A DNA stretch of 58,680 nucleotides from Isosphaera sp. GTDB taxonomy: Bacteria > Planctomycetota > Planctomycetia > Gemmatales > Gemmataceae. The stretch is taken from positions 1 through 58,680 of the forward strand of contig PNKH01000042.1 of NCBI GenBank assembly GCA_013822345.1, read 5' to 3'. A program made the translations under genes and the position numbers. Below are positions 4,785 to 14,409 of this stretch, one piece after another (the first letter of the stretch is position 1; each line of letters opens with the position of its first letter). The notes under the pieces were generated by a model. It saw only the letters and a list, made by a program, of their open reading frames with translations. It was not told where the DNA came from and did not search any database.

Positions 4785-4843
4785 GTGGGGCAGGCATTCC
4801 TGCCTGCCTCTGAAGCTTGGGCAGGCAGGAATGCCTGCCCCAC
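4785..4843. repeat. Palindrome 3' of the ABC permease
   Basis: 4785-4808 pairs perfectly over 24 bases with 4820-4843 (GTGGGGCAGGCATTCC... / ...GGAATGCCTGCCCCAC), with a short loop containing AAGCTT. It begins three bases after the permease stop codon, with no T-tract. Confidence 0.9.
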
Positions 4844-4870
4844 CCGATCCGGACCCGCGTGAGGCGCCTC

Positions 4871-6787
4871 ATGCCGACACGACTCCTCGCCGTCGCGGCG
4901 CTCCTCGTCGCCGCCCCCGCGGCCCCCGCCGACGGCCTCGAACGGCTGAAGTACAACCACCCCGGCCTCGCCGTCGACCTCGGCGTGGGGCTGTGGGCGT
5001 GGCCGCTGCCGATGGACTTCGACGGGGACGGCGACCTCGACCTCGTCGTGAACTGCCCGGACAAGCCGTCCAACGGCGTGTACGTGTTCGAGAACCCCGG
5101 CGGCACGTTCCCCGTCTTCAAGCCCGCCCGCCGCATCAGCAAGGGCCTCCAGAACGTCCAGGTGAGCTACGACGGCGGCAAGCCGCGCGTCCTGTCGCCG
5201 GGCTTCGAGTATCCCGACTTCCTCACGACCGGGCTGGAGAAGGGCGTCAAACTCCCGGTGCCGGCGAACGTCCACCCGAACAAGGTGCGGGCGAACATGT
5301 GGCGGTACGCCGACTACGACGGCGACGGCCTCCTCGACCTGGTCGTGGGCGTCGGCGACTGGACCGAGTACGGCTGGGACAACGCCTACGACGCGGCGGG
5401 GAAGTGGACGAACGGCCCGCTCCGCGGGTTCGTCTACGTCCTCCGCAACACCGGCACCGCCGCCAAGCCGGAGTACGCGAAACCGGAGAAGGTGATGGCC
5501 GGGGACAAGCCGGCCGAGACGTTCGGGTGGCCGTCGCCGAACCTCGCCGACTTCGACGCCGACGGCGACCTCGACCTCCTGTGCGGCGAGTTCCTCGACG
5601 GGTTCACCTACTTCGAGAACGTCGGCACCCGGCGGGAGCCGAAGTACGCCCCCGGGAAGCGGCTGAAGACCGCCGCCGGGGCCCCGCTCGTCATGGACCT
5701 GCAGATGATCACCCCGACCGCGATCGACTGGGACGCGGACGGCGACCTCGACCTGATCGTCGGCGACGAGGACGGGCGGGTGGCGTGGGTCGAGAACACC
5801 GGCAAACTCGCCGACCGGGTGCCGGTGTTCCTGCCGCCGCGGTACTTCCGTCAAGAGGCGGACGACGTGAAGTTCGGGGCGCTCGCCACCCCGACCGCGT
5901 TCGACTGGGACGGGGACGGCGACACCGACGTCATCTGCGGGAACACGGCCGGGTACATCGCCTTCATCGAGAACCTGAGCAGGCCGGGGGTGGAGCGGCC
6001 GAAGTGGGCGGCGCCGAAGTTGCTGGAGGCCGGCGGCAAGGTGATCCGCGTGCAGGCCGGGCCGAACGGGTCGATCCAGGGGCCGTGCGAGGCGAAGTGG
6101 GGGTACACGACGCAGACCGTCGCGGACTGGGACGGCGACGGCCTCCCCGACATCGTGGCGAACGCGATCTGGGGGAAGGTGCACTGGTACCGGAACGCCG
6201 GGACGCGGACCGCCCCGAAGCTGGAGGCGGCCCGGCCGGTGGAGGTCGAGTGGGACGGCCAGCAGCCGAAGCTCGCGTGGGGCTGGCTCCGCCCGGAGGG
6301 GAAGGAACTCCTGACGCAGTGGCGGACGACGCCGGTCGCGACCGACTGGGACCGCGACGGCCTGACCGACCTGGTCATGCTCGACCACGAGGGCCACCTG
6401 GCGTTCTTCCGCCGGGCCAAGCGCGACGGCAAGCTGGTCCTCCTGCCGCCGGCGCGGGTGTTGTGCGACGAGAAGGACGAGCCGCTGCGGCTGAACGCCG
6501 GGGTCGCGGGCAAGAGCGGGCGGCGGAAGCTGTGCGTCACGGATTGGGACGGCGACGGGAAGCTCGACGTGCTGGTGAACGGGGCGAACGCCCGGTGGCT
6601 GCGGCAGACCGGGGCGGCCGACGGGCGGTGGCGGTTCAAGGACATGGGCGACGTGGACGCCCGCAACATCGAGGGCCACGACACCCACCCGACCCCGGCC
6701 GACTTCGACGGGAACGGCGTCCCGGACCTGCTGATCGGCGCCGAGGACGGTCGGCTGTACTACCTCCGCAACCCGCGGAAGAAGTGA
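4871..6787 (+). CDS. Secreted FG-GAP/VCBS repeat protein
   Basis: The 638-residue product has a signal peptide (MPTRLLAVAALLVAAPAAPA) and about nine calcium-binding beta-propeller repeats of the form D(F/W/Y)D.DGD.D(L/V): for example DFDGDGDLDLVV, DYDGDGLLDLVV, DWDADGDLDLIV, DWDGDGLPDIVA, DWDRDGLTDLVM and DFDGNGVPDLLI. Such proteins are exported and form integrin-like propellers. No catalytic domain is attached. The ATG at 4871 is chosen because it opens the signal peptide; earlier in-frame codons would lie in the preceding palindrome. The substrate or partner is unknown. The gene is convergent with the selenoprotein gene. Confidence 0.9.
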   Translation: MPTRLLAVAALLVAAPAAPADGLERLKYNHPGLAVDLGVGLWAWPLPMDFDGDGDLDLVVNCPDKPSNGVYVFENPGGTFPVFKPARRISKGLQNVQVSYDGGKPRVLSPGFEYPDFLTTGLEKGVKLPVPANVHPNKVRANMWRYADYDGDGLLDLVVGVGDWTEYGWDNAYDAAGKWTNGPLRGFVYVLRNTGTAAKPEYAKPEKVMAGDKPAETFGWPSPNLADFDADGDLDLLCGEFLDGFTYFENVGTRREPKYAPGKRLKTAAGAPLVMDLQMITPTAIDWDADGDLDLIVGDEDGRVAWVENTGKLADRVPVFLPPRYFRQEADDVKFGALATPTAFDWDGDGDTDVICGNTAGYIAFIENLSRPGVERPKWAAPKLLEAGGKVIRVQAGPNGSIQGPCEAKWGYTTQTVADWDGDGLPDIVANAIWGKVHWYRNAGTRTAPKLEAARPVEVEWDGQQPKLAWGWLRPEGKELLTQWRTTPVATDWDRDGLTDLVMLDHEGHLAFFRRAKRDGKLVLLPPARVLCDEKDEPLRLNAGVAGKSGRRKLCVTDWDGDGKLDVLVNGANARWLRQTGAADGRWRFKDMGDVDARNIEGHDTHPTPADFDGNGVPDLLIGAEDGRLYYLRNPRKK

Positions 6788-6809
6788 CCAGGTGCCGGCG
6801 GCGACCGAC

Positions 6810-6869
6810 GGGAGGGCGAGGCTCCTGCCGAGCCGGGCGACTTCGGCTCGGCAGGAGCCTCGCCCTCCC
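6810..6869. repeat. Palindrome family A, copy 1
   Basis: A 25-base stem GGGAGGGCGAGGCTCCTGCC... (6810-6834) pairs with 6845-6869. The same 25-base arm occurs again at 30965-31025 with a different loop. It lies between two convergent genes. Confidence 0.9.
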
Positions 6870-6889
6870 GGGGACCGACGGTCGGGGGC

Positions 6890-7510
6890 CTACCGTTCCT
6901 TCCCGAGCAGCTTCCGCAGCACCGGCGGGACCTCTTCCGGCTTGAACCCCCGCGGCCCCGGCGGGCCGACGTACGCCAGCTTCCCGCCGGCGTCGACCAC
7001 GTACAGCCGGTCCGGCCACGCCGCGTAGGCGTTCCGCACCTGGTCGTCGATCGTGTCGACCAGCACCGGCAGCGTCACCTTGAAGTCGGCGACGAAGTCC
7101 CGGGCCACCTTGTTCCGCTCGTCCAGCGTCTTCGGGTCCTTGACCAGGACCTTGTCCTTCACGTTCTGCGGCACCTGCTGCCCGTCCGTCGGGTGCGCCT
7201 CCCGGATGTACACGAACAGGAAGTGGACGTCTTTCCCGTGGTCCGCGAACAGCTTCTCGATCTGACCGACCGAGTTCCGGAACGGCGGTCACGTGCAGCT
7301 GCCGAATACCAGCACCGCCGGCTTCCCCTTCAGGCCGGACAGCTTCACCGCGTTCTTGCCGGTGGCGTCGGCCAGTTCGAAGTCCGGGACCGCGTCCCCG
7401 ACCTTCAGGTTCCCGACCTCCCGCTTCGGCTGCTTGGGCGGTTGCCCGCCCGCCCACGCCGCCGCCAGGGCGAGCGCGAGCGCCGCACCCAGGGACCGAC
7501 CCGCGTTCAT
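6890..7510 (-). CDS. Deiodinase-like selenoprotein, UGA read as selenocysteine
   Basis: Thioredoxin-fold redox enzyme of the iodothyronine deiodinase family. Translated straight, the frame is cut by a TGA at 7291-7289, but both sides are one gene in one frame. Reading the TGA as selenocysteine gives 206 residues with FGSCTU74PPF, the deiodinase active site (vertebrate enzymes have GSCTUPPF). The family motif IREAHPTDG follows, and then AYAAWPDRLYVVDAGGKLAY and GPPGPRGFKPEE. A hairpin starting at the TGA fits a bacterial SECIS. The ATG at 7510 opens a signal peptide (MNAGRSLGAALALALAAAWA), so the protein is probably exported or lipid-associated. Cys72 could serve as resolving thiol. The substrate in bacteria is unknown; reductive dehalogenation or peroxide/thiol redox are options. 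A naive gene finder would report two broken ORFs here. Confidence 0.92.
7262..7291 (-). promoter_or_regulatory. Candidate bacterial SECIS at the selenocysteine codon
   Basis: On the minus strand the UGA itself opens a stem: TGACCG pairs with CGGTCA over six bases. Inside, CCG pairs with CGG, leaving an unpaired U and an apical palindrome GTTCCGGAAC whose loop contains GG. Bacterial SECIS elements lie immediately 3' of the UGA with a bulged U and a G in the apical loop, which this matches in position and outline. SelB binding is not proven. Confidence 0.65.
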
Positions 7511-7587
7511 GGCAACACCCCCCGTGACGTGACCGCGACACCCCAATCATGGGGCCGGGGCTGCCGGGGCACAACGGGAAAAGACGA

Positions 7588-7837
7588 GCCGCCGCCTTGG
7601 GGGAAGGCGGCGGCAGGGGGAAGGATGGTTTCGGACGGGGGACCGGACGTGGTAACTGACGGGTCCGGGAGAGGGGGGAACTCTCTCCCGCGGCCGCGAC
7701 CCTTGGGGGAAGGGTCGCGGCCGTCTTGTCCGCGGTGCCGGCCCGCGTCTTGGGGGAACGACGGCCTTGGGGGAAGGTTTCGTCGTCGCGGGTTCGGCAC
7801 CGTTCGCGGCCCGCTTGGGGGAAGCTTGCCGCGAACG
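7588..7837. repeat. Tandem cluster of hairpins with an invariant GGGGG loop
   Basis: The 533 bases between the selenoprotein and the next gene contain no convincing gene but a run of hairpins. Stems are 7588-7598/7604-7614 (11 bp, perfect), 7666-7673/7683-7690 (8 bp), 7691-7704/7710-7723 (14 bp, perfect), 7759-7768/7774-7785 nested inside 7736-7747/7787-7799, and 7801-7810/7828-7837 (10 bp plus inner GCTT/AAGC). Four share the apex CTT-GGGGG-AAG (a further TTGGGGGAA at 7750-7758 is unpaired), while the lower stems differ completely. The remainder, 7838-8043, shows no repeat. Confidence 0.8.
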
Positions 7838-8043
7838 AGAGGAGGTAATGCACGACCCGTGCCGCGCCGATTTTTCCGCCGCGCCGCCACCCCGCGTCCG
7901 GCCCAAGTCGTTGGTCACACGCCACATCCGCGGGCCTCGGCCGGCTCGTCTCACGCCCCCGCCGGTTTGTAATTCTTGCCGGGCGTTGTAAGACGTATCC
8001 GTGGTAAGTCTGACACGGCCGCCCGGCCCGCGGAGGTTTACCG

Positions 8044-9297
8044 ATGCCCGCCGACGCGCTCGTCGCCGACCTGAACTCGGCCCTGTCGAACGTCCCGCTG
8101 ATCGACCCGCACTCGCACATCGACCCGCTCGCCCCGGTGTCGCGGTCGCTCGACGACATCCTCGGATACCACTACTACACGGAACTGGCCCACTCGGCCG
8201 GGATGGGCCAGGCGGTGCTGGCGAAGGACGCCCCGCCGCGGGACCGCGTCCGGGAGATCGTCCGGTTCATGGACCGGTACGACAACACCGCCCAGTACGG
8301 GTGGTTCCTCGACATCGCCCAGACGTTCCTCGGGTTCGACGGCAAGCGGGTCACGGCCGCCGACGCCGACCGCCTGTTCGACGCCGCCGAGAAGCTGTTC
8401 GCCCAGCCGGACTGGGAGAAGCAGGTCCGCGACAAGACGAAGCTCGAGAAGATCTTCCTGACCAACGAGTTCGACGACCCGCTGGAGGGGTTCGACACCA
8501 GCGTGTACGTCCCGTGCCTGCGGACGGACACGCTGGTGTTCCACCTGGACAAGCCGGAGACGCGGCGGCGGCTGGCGGCGGCGACCGGGGTCGAGGTGCG
8601 GGACGCGGCGACGCTCCGGAAGGCGCTGGCGAAGCTGTTCATGCACTTCACCAGCCGGGGGGCGAAGGCGGCGGCGATCTCGTTGCCGCCGAACTTCCAC
8701 CCGGCCCCGTTCGACGACGAGCACATCTACGAGCAGATGCAGTTCCACGGGTACCACGACCTGGCCCCGGGCGTGTTCTGGATGGTGGCCGAGTTCTGCC
8801 GGGACTTCCGGCTGCCGTTCGACCTGATGGTCGGGGTGAACCGGCGGGTGTACGAGAAGGGGGTGTTCCAGGGGCAGGACCTGTTCGACCAGCGGACCAG
8901 CCTGATCCAGTACAAGGACCTGTTCAACGCGTTCCCCGACGTGACGTTCCCGGTGTCGGTCCTGACCAGCGCCCAGAACCAGGAACTCGTCGCGTACTCG
9001 TGGATCTTCCCGAACGTCCTCCCGAACGGCCACTGGTGGTACTCGAACACCCCGCCGTACATCCGCAAGGACCTGACGGAGCGGATCACCGCGGTGCCGA
9101 AGACGAAGCTGGTCGGGTACTACTCGGACGCGTACAAGCTGGAGTTCGTCCTGCCGAAGTACGCGATGTACCGGCGGATCCTGGCGAACGTGCTGGCCGA
9201 CGAGTTCGTCCGGCCGGGGGTGCTAAGCGAGAAGGACGCGGTCGCGCTCGGGACGCGGCTGCTGCGGGACAACGTCCGCGAGGTGTTCAAGGTGTGA
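8044..9297 (+). CDS. Uronate-isomerase-like amidohydrolase-superfamily protein
   Basis: 417 residues, related to glucuronate/uronate isomerase (UxaC-like), which interconverts D-glucuronate and D-fructuronate. The start of a TIM-barrel metal site is visible in IDPHSHIDP (His23, His25). Further family-like blocks are RFMDRYDNTAQYGWFLDIAQ, a WIFPNVLPNGHWWYSNTP segment late in the barrel and KLVGYYSDAYKLEFVLPKY near the end. Start: ATG with GGAGG eight bases upstream. No sugar-acid catabolic genes flank it, and planctomycetes carry divergent members of this family, so activity on hexuronates should not be assumed. Cytosolic; no signal peptide. Confidence 0.75.
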   Translation: MPADALVADLNSALSNVPLIDPHSHIDPLAPVSRSLDDILGYHYYTELAHSAGMGQAVLAKDAPPRDRVREIVRFMDRYDNTAQYGWFLDIAQTFLGFDGKRVTAADADRLFDAAEKLFAQPDWEKQVRDKTKLEKIFLTNEFDDPLEGFDTSVYVPCLRTDTLVFHLDKPETRRRLAAATGVEVRDAATLRKALAKLFMHFTSRGAKAAAISLPPNFHPAPFDDEHIYEQMQFHGYHDLAPGVFWMVAEFCRDFRLPFDLMVGVNRRVYEKGVFQGQDLFDQRTSLIQYKDLFNAFPDVTFPVSVLTSAQNQELVAYSWIFPNVLPNGHWWYSNTPPYIRKDLTERITAVPKTKLVGYYSDAYKLEFVLPKYAMYRRILANVLADEFVRPGVLSEKDAVALGTRLLRDNVREVFKV

Positions 9298-12054: not shown

Positions 12055-14409
12055 TCACTTCTTCCGGCGGGTGTACGTCCCGGCCTCGGAGTACGCGGTG
12101 ATGAACCCGAGCTTCATCACGAACTCCTGGCCGATCTCGTCCTTCGCCCCGAACGTCCACCGCACCGTCCCCTTCACCCCGCTCCCGAACGGGCTCGTCC
12201 AGGTCAGCGTCTCGGCGGCCGCGTCCCACGCCCCGTCCCACTCCAGCACCGACCCCTGCGACGTGTACGTCCACATCCGGTACTTCCCCGCCGCCGGGTC
12301 GAACGTCACCAGCTCGTAGAAGTCCCTCTCCTCGCCCTCCCCGAGCCGCCGGGCCATCAGGTAAGACCCGCCGAACGCCCGCGCCACCGACTCCGCCCCG
12401 GTCACCGTCGTCTCCGCCCCGCCGCGCGGCTTCGTCACCACCCTCGTGTCCCACTCCCCGAGCCGCCGCTCCAACTCCGGGGTGAGTTGCCCCTTCACCG
12501 GCGGGTCGAACGCGACCACCCCCGGCGGCGGGAACGCCGACGTGTGGACCTGCTTCCACGGCACCCGCGTGCTCGTCGCCCCGAGGAACCCGAACAGCAT
12601 CTCGTCCGTCGTCTGGTCCCCGACCGACACGTCCCGCGGGGGCCGCGTCGGGTTGTTCGGGTTCCCCGCCGAGTTGTCGAACACCGCCTCGATCTCGATC
12701 TTCGTGCCCACCGTCGCGGTGATCGGCTCCTGGAACCAGTACGTCTCCTGCCACCGGTAGTCCCAGGCCGGGATGTCGATCAGGACCACCGGCTTGCCCC
12801 CCGGCGGGGTCATCGTCACCTTCACCGTCTTGCCGAGCAGGTGCATGTGCGGCAGGACGTTGTGCAGGACCGCGTCGGTGTGCAGGTACACCGCCCCGCG
12901 GGCGACGTGGTTCGCCGACCCGGCGAGGATCTTCTCCGCCGGCTTCATCCCGTTGATGACGACCGTCTGCCACGGCTGCTCGACCGGCCCCCTGGCGAAG
13001 TACAGCCCGATCTGCGTCCGGTCGACCGTCGCCTGGCCGTTCCGGTGGTAGTGCGTCTGGATCAGGAAGTCGGACCCCTTCGGGAGGAGCCACCCGGCCC
13101 CGGCCGGGACGAACTCCGGGGCCTGCCCCGGGGCCCACCCGCCGACCCAGCCGAACGTCGGGGCGTCCTTCTTCCCGGTGCTCGGGATGAACCCGACCCC
13201 CATGCTCGCGTTGTACCCCGGGCCGCCGTCCATCAGCAGCTTCCCCTTGTCCTTCTCCCGCTGCGCGTCCTCCAGCTTGCGGCCCTGCCCGGTGGTGTCG
13301 AAGTAGTGCAGTGTGTGGTGGACGACCCGCGGGTTGCCGGGCTTCACGTCGTACCCGATCACCCACTTGTTCTCGGTCAGCCCGGTCGGGACGACGAACA
13401 CCCGGAACAGGTCGTCCCCGGTCCCGCCGAGGCGGAAGTCGTCGCCGGGGGTGATGACCAGGTCCGGCTTCCCGTGCCGCCACCCGTCGGTGCCGAAGTC
13501 GGGGGCCTTCGGGGCGTCCGCCGGGTCGCCCTCGGGGGCGTCGGCGTCGGCCCACGCGGCGAGGGTGGCGATCTCCTTCGCGGTCAGCTTCCGCTCGCCG
13601 CGGATCGGCAGCCCGGCCGCCGGCATCCACGGCGGCATCTGCCGGTTCCCGGTGTACTCCTTGATGTCCGCCGCCCACCGGCGGGCCGAGTTGAACGAGG
13701 TGAGCGGGAACGGCCCGACCTCCCCGGCCCGGTGGCAGACCACGCAGTGGTTGTTCAGGATCGGGGCCACGTCCTTGTAGAAGGTGACGGCCCCGGCCTT
13801 CGGGGCGGGCCGGGCGGCGAAGTCGATCTCGCACCCGATCGGCTTCGTCACCGGGGTGGCGATTGGCTTCCCGGCGAGGACGGCGGCGACGGCGTCCTTC
13901 AGGTCGTGGGACGTGACCACCGGGTTCCGCTTCAGCCGCTCGCGGAAGGCGTCGTCGACCCGCCCGCGGTACCGGACCACGCCGTCGGCGTCGAGCACGA
14001 ACGCCTCCGGGGTGACGGTCGCTTTCAGCCCGGCGGCGAGCTCCTTCTTCGGGTCGAGGAACACCGGCCCGGCCGCCTTCGCGGCCGCCGCGGCCTTGGC
14101 CACCTCGTCGCGCGGCTCGTCCGTCGGGGCGGCGAGGACGACCGCCACGCCCTTGTCGGCGTGGGCCCTGGCGAGGTCGGCCAGCTCGGTCGTGTACGAC
14201 TTGGACACCGGGCAGTCGAACGACACGAACACGACGACGGTCGCGGCCTTGCCGCGGAGGGTGTCGAACCGGGTCGGGGTGCCGTCGAGGGCGGCGAGGG
14301 TCGGGGCCGGGGCCTTGGACCCGACCACGTCGGCGCCGGGGAGCGGGTCGGCGGCCAACGCGGTCGGGGCGGCGGCCAGCGCGAGTACGGCGAACAGCGG
14401 ACGGGACAT
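12055..14409 (-). CDS. Thioredoxin-like / heme c / copper type II monooxygenase / DUF1579 fusion
   Basis: 784 residues, exported (signal peptide MSRPLFAVLALAAAPTALA). Order of parts: redoxin domain, about 28-185, with FDCPVSKSY at the active-site position (one Cys only); heme c motif CVVCH at 222-226; copper type II ascorbate-dependent monooxygenase (PHM/DBM-like), about 310-615, with ligands HHTLH (364-368), HYH (453-455), HMH (521-523) and Met604 in TDEMLFGF; then a C-terminal DUF1579-like domain, about 640-784. PHM-type enzymes hydroxylate C-H bonds using two coppers and an electron donor; the heme and redoxin domains may supply electrons. First gene of the minus-strand operon with DUF3419, GNAT and diiron genes. 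Such fusions recur in planctomycetes; substrate unknown. Confidence 0.85.
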   Translation of the reverse strand: MSRPLFAVLALAAAPTALAADPLPGADVVGSKAPAPTLAALDGTPTRFDTLRGKAATVVVFVSFDCPVSKSYTTELADLARAHADKGVAVVLAAPTDEPRDEVAKAAAAAKAAGPVFLDPKKELAAGLKATVTPEAFVLDADGVVRYRGRVDDAFRERLKRNPVVTSHDLKDAVAAVLAGKPIATPVTKPIGCEIDFAARPAPKAGAVTFYKDVAPILNNHCVVCHRAGEVGPFPLTSFNSARRWAADIKEYTGNRQMPPWMPAAGLPIRGERKLTAKEIATLAAWADADAPEGDPADAPKAPDFGTDGWRHGKPDLVITPGDDFRLGGTGDDLFRVFVVPTGLTENKWVIGYDVKPGNPRVVHHTLHYFDTTGQGRKLEDAQREKDKGKLLMDGGPGYNASMGVGFIPSTGKKDAPTFGWVGGWAPGQAPEFVPAGAGWLLPKGSDFLIQTHYHRNGQATVDRTQIGLYFARGPVEQPWQTVVINGMKPAEKILAGSANHVARGAVYLHTDAVLHNVLPHMHLLGKTVKVTMTPPGGKPVVLIDIPAWDYRWQETYWFQEPITATVGTKIEIEAVFDNSAGNPNNPTRPPRDVSVGDQTTDEMLFGFLGATSTRVPWKQVHTSAFPPPGVVAFDPPVKGQLTPELERRLGEWDTRVVTKPRGGAETTVTGAESVARAFGGSYLMARRLGEGEERDFYELVTFDPAAGKYRMWTYTSQGSVLEWDGAWDAAAETLTWTSPFGSGVKGTVRWTFGAKDEIGQEFVMKLGFITAYSEAGTYTRRKK

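Follow-up and report, generated by a model that had tools for sequence, protein, structure and literature searches.

The locus considered here raises the question of whether two adjacent broken reading frames in a planctomycete genome belong to one gene in which a TGA codon is read as selenocysteine (Sec), and what kind of protein such a gene would encode. The window, i.e. the whole stretch of 58,680 nucleotides that was analysed, comes from an Isosphaera sp. genome of 7.47 Mb, a draft in 226 contigs in which the T4_deiodinase domain (PF00837) was found once. On the minus strand, the standard code splits the deiodinase-like gene into two ORFs at 7546-7289 (85 aa) and 7213-6890 (107 aa). With the TGA at 7291-7289 read as Sec, the frame runs from an ATG at 7510 to a TAG at 6890, gives 206 residues, and holds both FGSCT-U-PPF and EAHPTDG. 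The first-pass annotation had placed the TGA exactly at the deiodinase Sec, with EAHPTDG and the C-terminal blocks continuing in frame; the coordinates proved exact, and frame and family were borne out by a PF00837 match of 112.2 bits over residues 36-200 (cut-off 27). Very probably, locus 7510-6890 (minus strand) is one gene for an exported Sec-containing deiodinase-family protein in which UGA codon 74 is read as Sec with the aid of a hairpin and Cys72 is the resolving residue. Direct support for the window gene comes from the frame, homology, the Sec machinery, interchange of TGA and Cys codons, hairpin constraint at the family level, and residue conservation; insertion of Sec itself, export, the substrate, and the resolving step are inferred. 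The features discussed below are as follows.

6890-7510, minus strand: predicted gene for a deiodinase-like selenoprotein of 206 aa, Sec being encoded by codon 74 (PF00837 112.2 bits; Dio3, 4tr3, E 6.9e-21)
7289-7291, minus strand: in-frame TGA, predicted Sec74 (TGA or Cys codon in the same column in 199/200 domains)
7295-7297, minus strand: Cys72 codon (C-x-U), proposed resolving thiol (sole Cys codon of the gene; -2 Cys in 7/7 members of the same type)
7256-7274, minus strand: SECIS-like hairpin CTCGGTC-GGTCA-GATCGAG, at nt 15-33 past the TGA (in 7 same-type members the stem cells are 94% paired; not significant alone)
7265-7267, minus strand: GGT (Gly82) codon in the hairpin loop (present in 6/7 same-type members; GGT is 3/252 Gly codons in five neighbouring ORFs)
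7442-7510, minus strand: signal-peptide-like N-terminus, residues 1-23 (hydrophobicity only; pLDDT <50 for residues 1-23)
7181-7201, minus strand: EAHPTDG motif with Glu104 and His106, corresponding to Dio3 Glu200 and His202 (sequence and family alignment)
7094-7096, minus strand: Phe139, inside predicted helix 129-143 and in the column that holds a distal Cys in most Sec relatives (alignment and model)
7518-7523, minus strand: GGGGGG, Shine-Dalgarno-like, 7 nt before the ATG (sequence)

TGA as a codon across the family

A pseudogene or sequencing error, in which a Cys codon turned into TGA and the gene is broken, would look alike in a single sequence, and the assembly is a draft in many contigs. 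Against this, six orthologues in other genomes carry TGA at the same codon as the window gene, and pN/pS in six orthologue pairs is well under 1 on both sides of it, at 0.16-0.34 before the TGA and 0.23-0.55 after (0.32 and 0.35, respectively, for the window gene compared with genome G016). Together with the presence of Sec machinery in the genome, described below, this leaves a broken gene with a practically negligible probability, and the orthologues and pN/pS lead us to reject that reading.

Of 200 Planctomycetota PF00837 domains, 151 have TGA as the active-site codon, 48 have a Cys codon, and one has a Ser codon. In the first 98 unique domains the TGA column held U in 59 and Cys in 39, with further TGA codons confined to the alignment's C-terminal end, in 9 cases; the 102 later domains, from a further 100 stretches, comprised 92 with U, 9 with Cys, and one with Ser in that column, and no other internal TGA was found when the last 12 residues were not counted. 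A tree of 199 rows requires 10 changes between U and C. A UGA at a redox position with Cys homologues, as is found here, is one criterion for a bacterial selenoprotein. The first-pass annotation had also reasoned that a different stop or a frameshift at this point in close homologues would speak against Sec; those homologues carry either TGA at the exact codon or a Cys codon, with no other stop and no frameshift. The family is broad, as PF00837 was present in 51/95 genomes of a Gemmataceae family set and in 118/392 genomes sampled across Planctomycetota, three quarters of the domains examined being of the TGA form. A search of other phyla gave three distant loci.

Several observations concern relatives of the window gene. 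Deiodinase-like genes lie next to each other in three genomes, one copy with Sec and the other with Cys in G039, and two Sec copies each in G093 and G042 (loci L009/L061, L027/L063, and L077). Locus L090 in G006 has a Cys form, SCT-C-SIF, that groups with the window-gene clade, and its domain was matched in two pieces, as if holding an insert. Loci L018 and L084 are longer relatives with EF-hand-like stretches before the deiodinase domain, over the cut-off in L018 and below it in L084.

Selenocysteine machinery and the hairpin after the TGA

The first-pass annotation had made its Sec reading depend on selA, selB, selD, and a tRNA-Sec gene, and all four are present in the genome. Profile searches gave SelA at 553.7 bits, SelB at 365, and SelD at 384, all above curated cut-offs, and the tRNA-Sec is 94 nt long and scores 79.6 bits (cut-off 47), with anticodon TCA by ARAGORN. 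Within the Gemmataceae set, 23 of the 51 genomes with PF00837 have the TGA form, and SelB is over its cut-off in 23/23 of these; put otherwise, the TGA form occurs in 23/46 PF00837 genomes with SelB over the cut-off vs 0/5 without (one-sided Fisher 0.042). The five genomes lacking such a SelB match (G009, G014, G049, G069, G094) contain Cys forms only, although the SelB match in G009 sits in a 211-aa frame and one of the five may thus be an assembly matter. SelA was over its cut-off in 21/23 TGA-form genomes (exceptions G030 and G039), and a tRNA-Sec match above 60 bits was found in 19/23 (exceptions G019, G039, G064, and G093), the exceptions all being drafts. At E 0.001, tRNA-Sec, SelB, and SelD were matched in 14/14 control genomes, over cut-off in 5, 2, and 2 respectively, and SelA was matched in 4, over cut-off in 1. 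Weak machinery matches carry little meaning, since controls match too, and the argument is therefore built on high-scoring matches alone. Sec machinery in Gemmata obscuriglobus has already been published (PMC4807772).

The hairpin was assessed by asking whether a stem that has a G-bearing loop and begins 13-30 nt past the codon outperforms synonymous-codon shuffles at the 0.05 level. In the first set this was so in 22/33 Sec vs 2/36 Cys members, and in the later set in 42/92 Sec vs 0/9 Cys members; folding energy in place of stem length gave a weaker family signal (15/33 Sec vs 1/36 Cys members of the first set). Across the 52 Sec members that belong to other types, 72% of the cells of a fixed stem were paired, vs 32-48% when the stem was slid and 33% in Cys members, and two-sided changes occurred in the stem, one pair being G-C in 19, C-G in 13, A-T in 3, T-A in 1, and unpaired in 16. 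The stem of the window gene (nt 15-33, loop GGTCA) has 94% of cells paired in the seven members of its own type, which give little covariation because the stem hardly varies. Taken by itself the window-gene hairpin has a z of 0.06 vs dinucleotide shuffles, and 11% of synonymous-codon shuffles do equally well (0.11). The SECIS-like hairpin of the first-pass annotation is thus present and is supported at the level of the family, while in the window gene alone it does not go beyond chance. Three of the 19 Gly codons in the window gene are GGT (codons 4, 8, and 82), and beyond codon 8 none of its codons except 82 ends in T; the recurrence of GGT at loop codon 82 in 6/7 same-type members is a separate sign of RNA constraint.

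The weakness of the hairpin in the window gene alone could favour a reading in which the TGA is ordinary readthrough, as Trp or Cys, or a real stop with a regulated truncated product, with no Sec insertion. Such a reading sits poorly with the exchange of TGA with Cys (and one Ser) in 200 domains, with SelB over the cut-off in every TGA-form genome of the family set, and with the synonymous constraint on the hairpin across the family, and it appears very unlikely. Under the Sec reading, SelB and Sec-tRNA-Sec would read UGA codon 74 as selenocysteine, aided by the hairpin just downstream.

Fold, active site, and the second thiol

The protein matches Redoxin (PF08534, 46.8 bits vs a cut-off of 26.6) and AhpC-TSA (PF00578, 42.7 vs 26), both more weakly than PF00837. 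Its best solved relatives by sequence (phmmer) are mouse Dio3 (E 6.9e-21) and Dio2 (E 4.1e-16), and a structure model with pLDDT 87.6 has the same two as its best PDB matches by Foldseek (Dio3 E 8.7e-14, Dio2 E 1.4e-13) and by VIA (Dio3 Z 20.5 over 168 residues at 2.4 A; Dio2 Z 21.1 over 171 residues at 2.8 A). After the deiodinases the next fold matches are ResA by Foldseek and AhpE by VIA, with Bcp also among the followers. A special closeness to animal deiodinases was considered but is not claimed, as the tree, with weak forks, groups Dio2 and Dio3 with four other planctomycete rows, apart from the window clade.

The window protein has the S-x-T-[UC] site together with the Dio Tyr, Glu, and His. 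The Dio active-site residues kept in it are widespread among the 151 Sec members: Ser71 (147), Thr73 (148), Tyr101 (151), Glu104 (149), His106 (150), Arg132 (149), and Arg168 (134). Three others are not kept, namely Dio3 Arg275, the substrate-carboxylate clamp (Pro184 here; Arg in 54/151 Sec members), Dio3 His219, the proposed proton relay (Pro126 here; His in 17/151), and Dio3 Trp207 (Gln111 here; Trp in 58/151). At the Arg275 position Dio2 has Lys and Dio1 has Arg one residue earlier, according to two papers (PMC11592359, PMC7506546), so that the clamp is not strictly defining for deiodinases. Replacement of Arg275 and His219 by Pro184 and Pro126 makes thyroid hormone an unlikely substrate and means that the proton relay is not identical. 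As judged from the alignment, the reaction centre is deiodinase-like but the proposed thyroid-hormone carboxylate site is not kept. Peroxiredoxins have the motif PxxxTxxC. The window protein does not show it, having Ser71 at -3 but Leu67 at the expected Pro, and in U-P-P-F it also lacks the UxxC motif of review tables. Against NCBIfam NF038285 (deiodinase_rel) it scores 185.3 bits, below the cut-off of 250.

Cys72 is the only Cys of the 206-aa protein besides Sec74, and the position of the second thiol varies in the family. In the first 98 domains no member combined a -2 Cys with one in the helix that precedes the PVLVD strand, the U members having 46 with the helix Cys only, 9 with the -2 Cys only, 0 with both, and 4 with neither, and the Cys members 35 helix, 1 at -2, 0 both, and 3 neither. 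Exclusivity was set down as a prediction before the 102 further domains were viewed. The 92 later U members comprised 78 with helix Cys, 1 with -2 only, 0 with both, and 13 with neither. The prediction that almost every member has one or the other failed on these 13/92; 8 of the 13 show a Cys at +3, which was added as a third position. Over all 151 U members, the helix Cys was the sole one of the three in 122, the -2 Cys in 10, and the +3 Cys in 8, while 2 members combined +3 with helix and 9 had none; over all 48 Cys members there were 43 helix, 1 at -2, and 4 none. Five of the nine Sec members counted under none in this three-site tally do have a Cys in the vicinity, just after the conserved Arg132 in L174, L203, and L228 and near the site in L093 and L025. 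The raw contrasts, from which relatedness is not removed, gave Fisher values of 6.7e-9 for -2 vs helix and 1.4e-5 for +3 vs helix. The tree calls for 4 changes of the -2 Cys, of which starred branches force 2, too few for a sign test to reach 0.05; the pattern is consistent with a single origin for the window-gene clade, in which the Cys form L090 is included, and with one further origin in each of L070, L114, and L179.

The helix position is residue 139 of the window protein, within predicted helix 129-143; in L007, which has the helix Cys, it is residue 110, as counted manually from a spacing of 13 residues, in predicted helix 100-113. Counted manually in the alignment, the helix Cys column lies 8 residues before the animal distal Cys, which PMC7506546 places in the loop after alpha-D. 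In human DIO1, a Cys124-Cys126 disulfide at the matching positions was detected by mass spectrometry and Cys124 is needed for glutathione reduction (PMC9141512). Cysteines at -2 (C-x-U), at +3 (U-x-x-C), and in helix alpha-D seem almost mutually exclusive by alignment, with most Sec members apparently using the helix Cys, and this layout seems new. It is possible, and we propose it only tentatively, that deiodinase-family selenoproteins of Planctomycetota each have one resolving thiol, at -2, +3, or helix alpha-D, that lineages have swapped it repeatedly, and that the window protein is an exported CxU version whose substrate, halogenated or peroxidic, is met outside the cytosol. If the one-partner rule is true, the unsettled role of the animal distal Cys becomes testable in bacterial relatives.

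Surroundings, function, and known systems

The window gene is flanked by a convergent gene for an FG-GAP protein and a divergent uxaC-like gene. A uxaC-like neighbour is also found in G016 and G019, of the same genus, and an ABC permease adjoins too in G016; in G064 and G065 the neighbour is of the PSD1/PSCyt type (recognised in G064 through blast against the G065 copy), and G065 also has a DUF1501 protein. No neighbour is common to all seven same-type genes, and context therefore says little on the substrate. The FG-GAP repeat protein (4817-6787, plus strand) lies between an ABC permease and the deiodinase gene, and in G016 (L124) the permease adjoins the deiodinase directly. Nearby is a second redox protein, of 784 aa (12055-14409, minus strand); its start is hydrophobic and its N-terminal part holds a Redoxin domain. 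A long inverted repeat at 6809-6870, between the convergent deiodinase and FG-GAP genes, scores in Rfam as several miRNA families far below thresholds on both strands and may be a bidirectional terminator or a repeat.

Just upstream of the deiodinase gene, in the interval that separates it from the uxaC-like gene, there is a chain of hairpins with C-rich loops (TTCCCCC) at 7574-7841 on the minus strand, ending in a terminator-like hairpin at 7614-7588 (shuffles give 1.2 such sites on average). The motif CCTTCCCCCAAGG occurs 4 times in the host genome, 3 of them within this element. Matches over at least 195 nt were found in 22/95 family genomes, and the element lay divergently beside a uxaC-like gene in 16/17 loci examined and beside a deiodinase in 3. 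In 17 aligned sequences, 24/58 predicted pairs had at least one two-sided pair-keeping change. Rfam 15 over 6400-8200 gave nothing over its gathering score, the 6C RNA reaching 32.2 bits vs 47, and the L129 copy had no Rfam match up to E 1. Among the matches listed, the literature on C-rich-loop small RNAs included none from planctomycetes. The element appears to be a small RNA with C-rich loops, not described before and independent of the deiodinase.

The first-pass annotation had proposed a signal peptide and work outside the cytosol. A hydrophobic, signal-peptide-like N-terminus is present in 7/7 same-type genes, with start codons chosen by the analyst and hydrophobicity read without a control; export is suggested by this hydrophobicity reading, and the N-terminus of the window protein could instead be a membrane anchor. 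If exported, the product would be a single-domain deiodinase-family protein with a peroxiredoxin-like thioredoxin fold. Within a site of Ser71, Thr73, Tyr101, Glu104, His106, Arg132, and Arg168, the Sec74 selenolate would attack an electrophilic substrate, which could be a peroxide or, as with animal deiodinases, a carbon-halogen bond. By position and by analogy with DIO1, Cys72, which supplies the sole additional thiol, would resolve oxidised Sec74 by forming a Cys72-Sec74 selenenylsulfide; an exported thiol reductant would then reduce this bridge outside the cytosol.

The nature of the substrate divides the remaining readings. We lean slightly toward the same selenoprotein being a peroxidase or thiol oxidoreductase unrelated to halogens, consistent with Redoxin and AhpC-TSA scores that both exceed their cut-offs, with AhpE, Bcp, and ResA coming next after deiodinases in the fold comparison, and with 0/10 scanned proteins, mostly neighbours of the gene and its orthologues, being halogen-related by name; it has to accommodate a far higher PF00837 score and the conservation of the Dio active-site Ser, Thr, Tyr, Glu, His, and two Arg. 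Alternatively, the same selenoprotein could be an exported reductive dehalogenase of halogenated aromatics, for which near-invariance of the Dio-type Tyr101, His106, and Glu104 in Sec members would speak. We consider this unlikely, given Pro at both Dio3 Arg275 and His219, the minority of Sec members with Arg or His in those columns, and the fact that no substrate, transporter, or pathway gene points that way. Our best guess for the window protein is an exported Prx-like Sec reductase recycled through the Cys72-Sec74 selenenylsulfide.

The bacterial deiodinase-like family was described from the Sargasso Sea in 2005 with 4 Sec and 6 Cys sequences (PMC1088965); two later reviews tabulate its motif as UxxC (PMC9312934, PMC13188914), and a 2008 ocean survey lists no motif for it (PMC2398784). 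The earlier statement that bacterial Sec members are known while their substrates are not agrees with PMC1088965 and PMC13188914. In the main texts of the selenoprotein papers searched, planctomycetes and deiodinases are nowhere brought together, and among papers with both deiodinase and planctomycete terms none is on this subject by title and start of abstract. The window gene is a member of a known selenoprotein family (Sargasso Sea 2005; NF038285), of a distinct, apparently exported CxU type. With that family it shares PF00837, the occurrence of Sec and Cys forms, and a SECIS-like hairpin after the UGA (PMC1088965, PMC9312934, PMC13188914); it differs from the UxxC of the review tables in having UPPF with CxU, UxxC being present in 10/151 Sec domains. 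Homology to NF038285 extends over residues 36-194, but the match begins at model position 177 of 347, the N-terminal half being missing in the window protein, unlike the longer relative L084, which scores 444 bits. Animal Dio1 and Dio3 (SCTU) resemble the window protein in SCT-U, the -2 Cys, AHPxDG, the Prx-like thioredoxin fold, and the active-site Tyr, Glu, His, and Arg, whereas the window protein has no distal Cys (Dio3 Cys239), has Pro for Arg275 and His219 and Gln for Trp207, is about 30% identical to them, and would use bacterial Sec decoding. Finally, ResA-type exported thioredoxins, AhpE, and Bcp have their fold in common with the window protein, and its apparent export is like that of the ResA type, but the window protein has no CxxC and carries instead Sec and the deiodinase motif.
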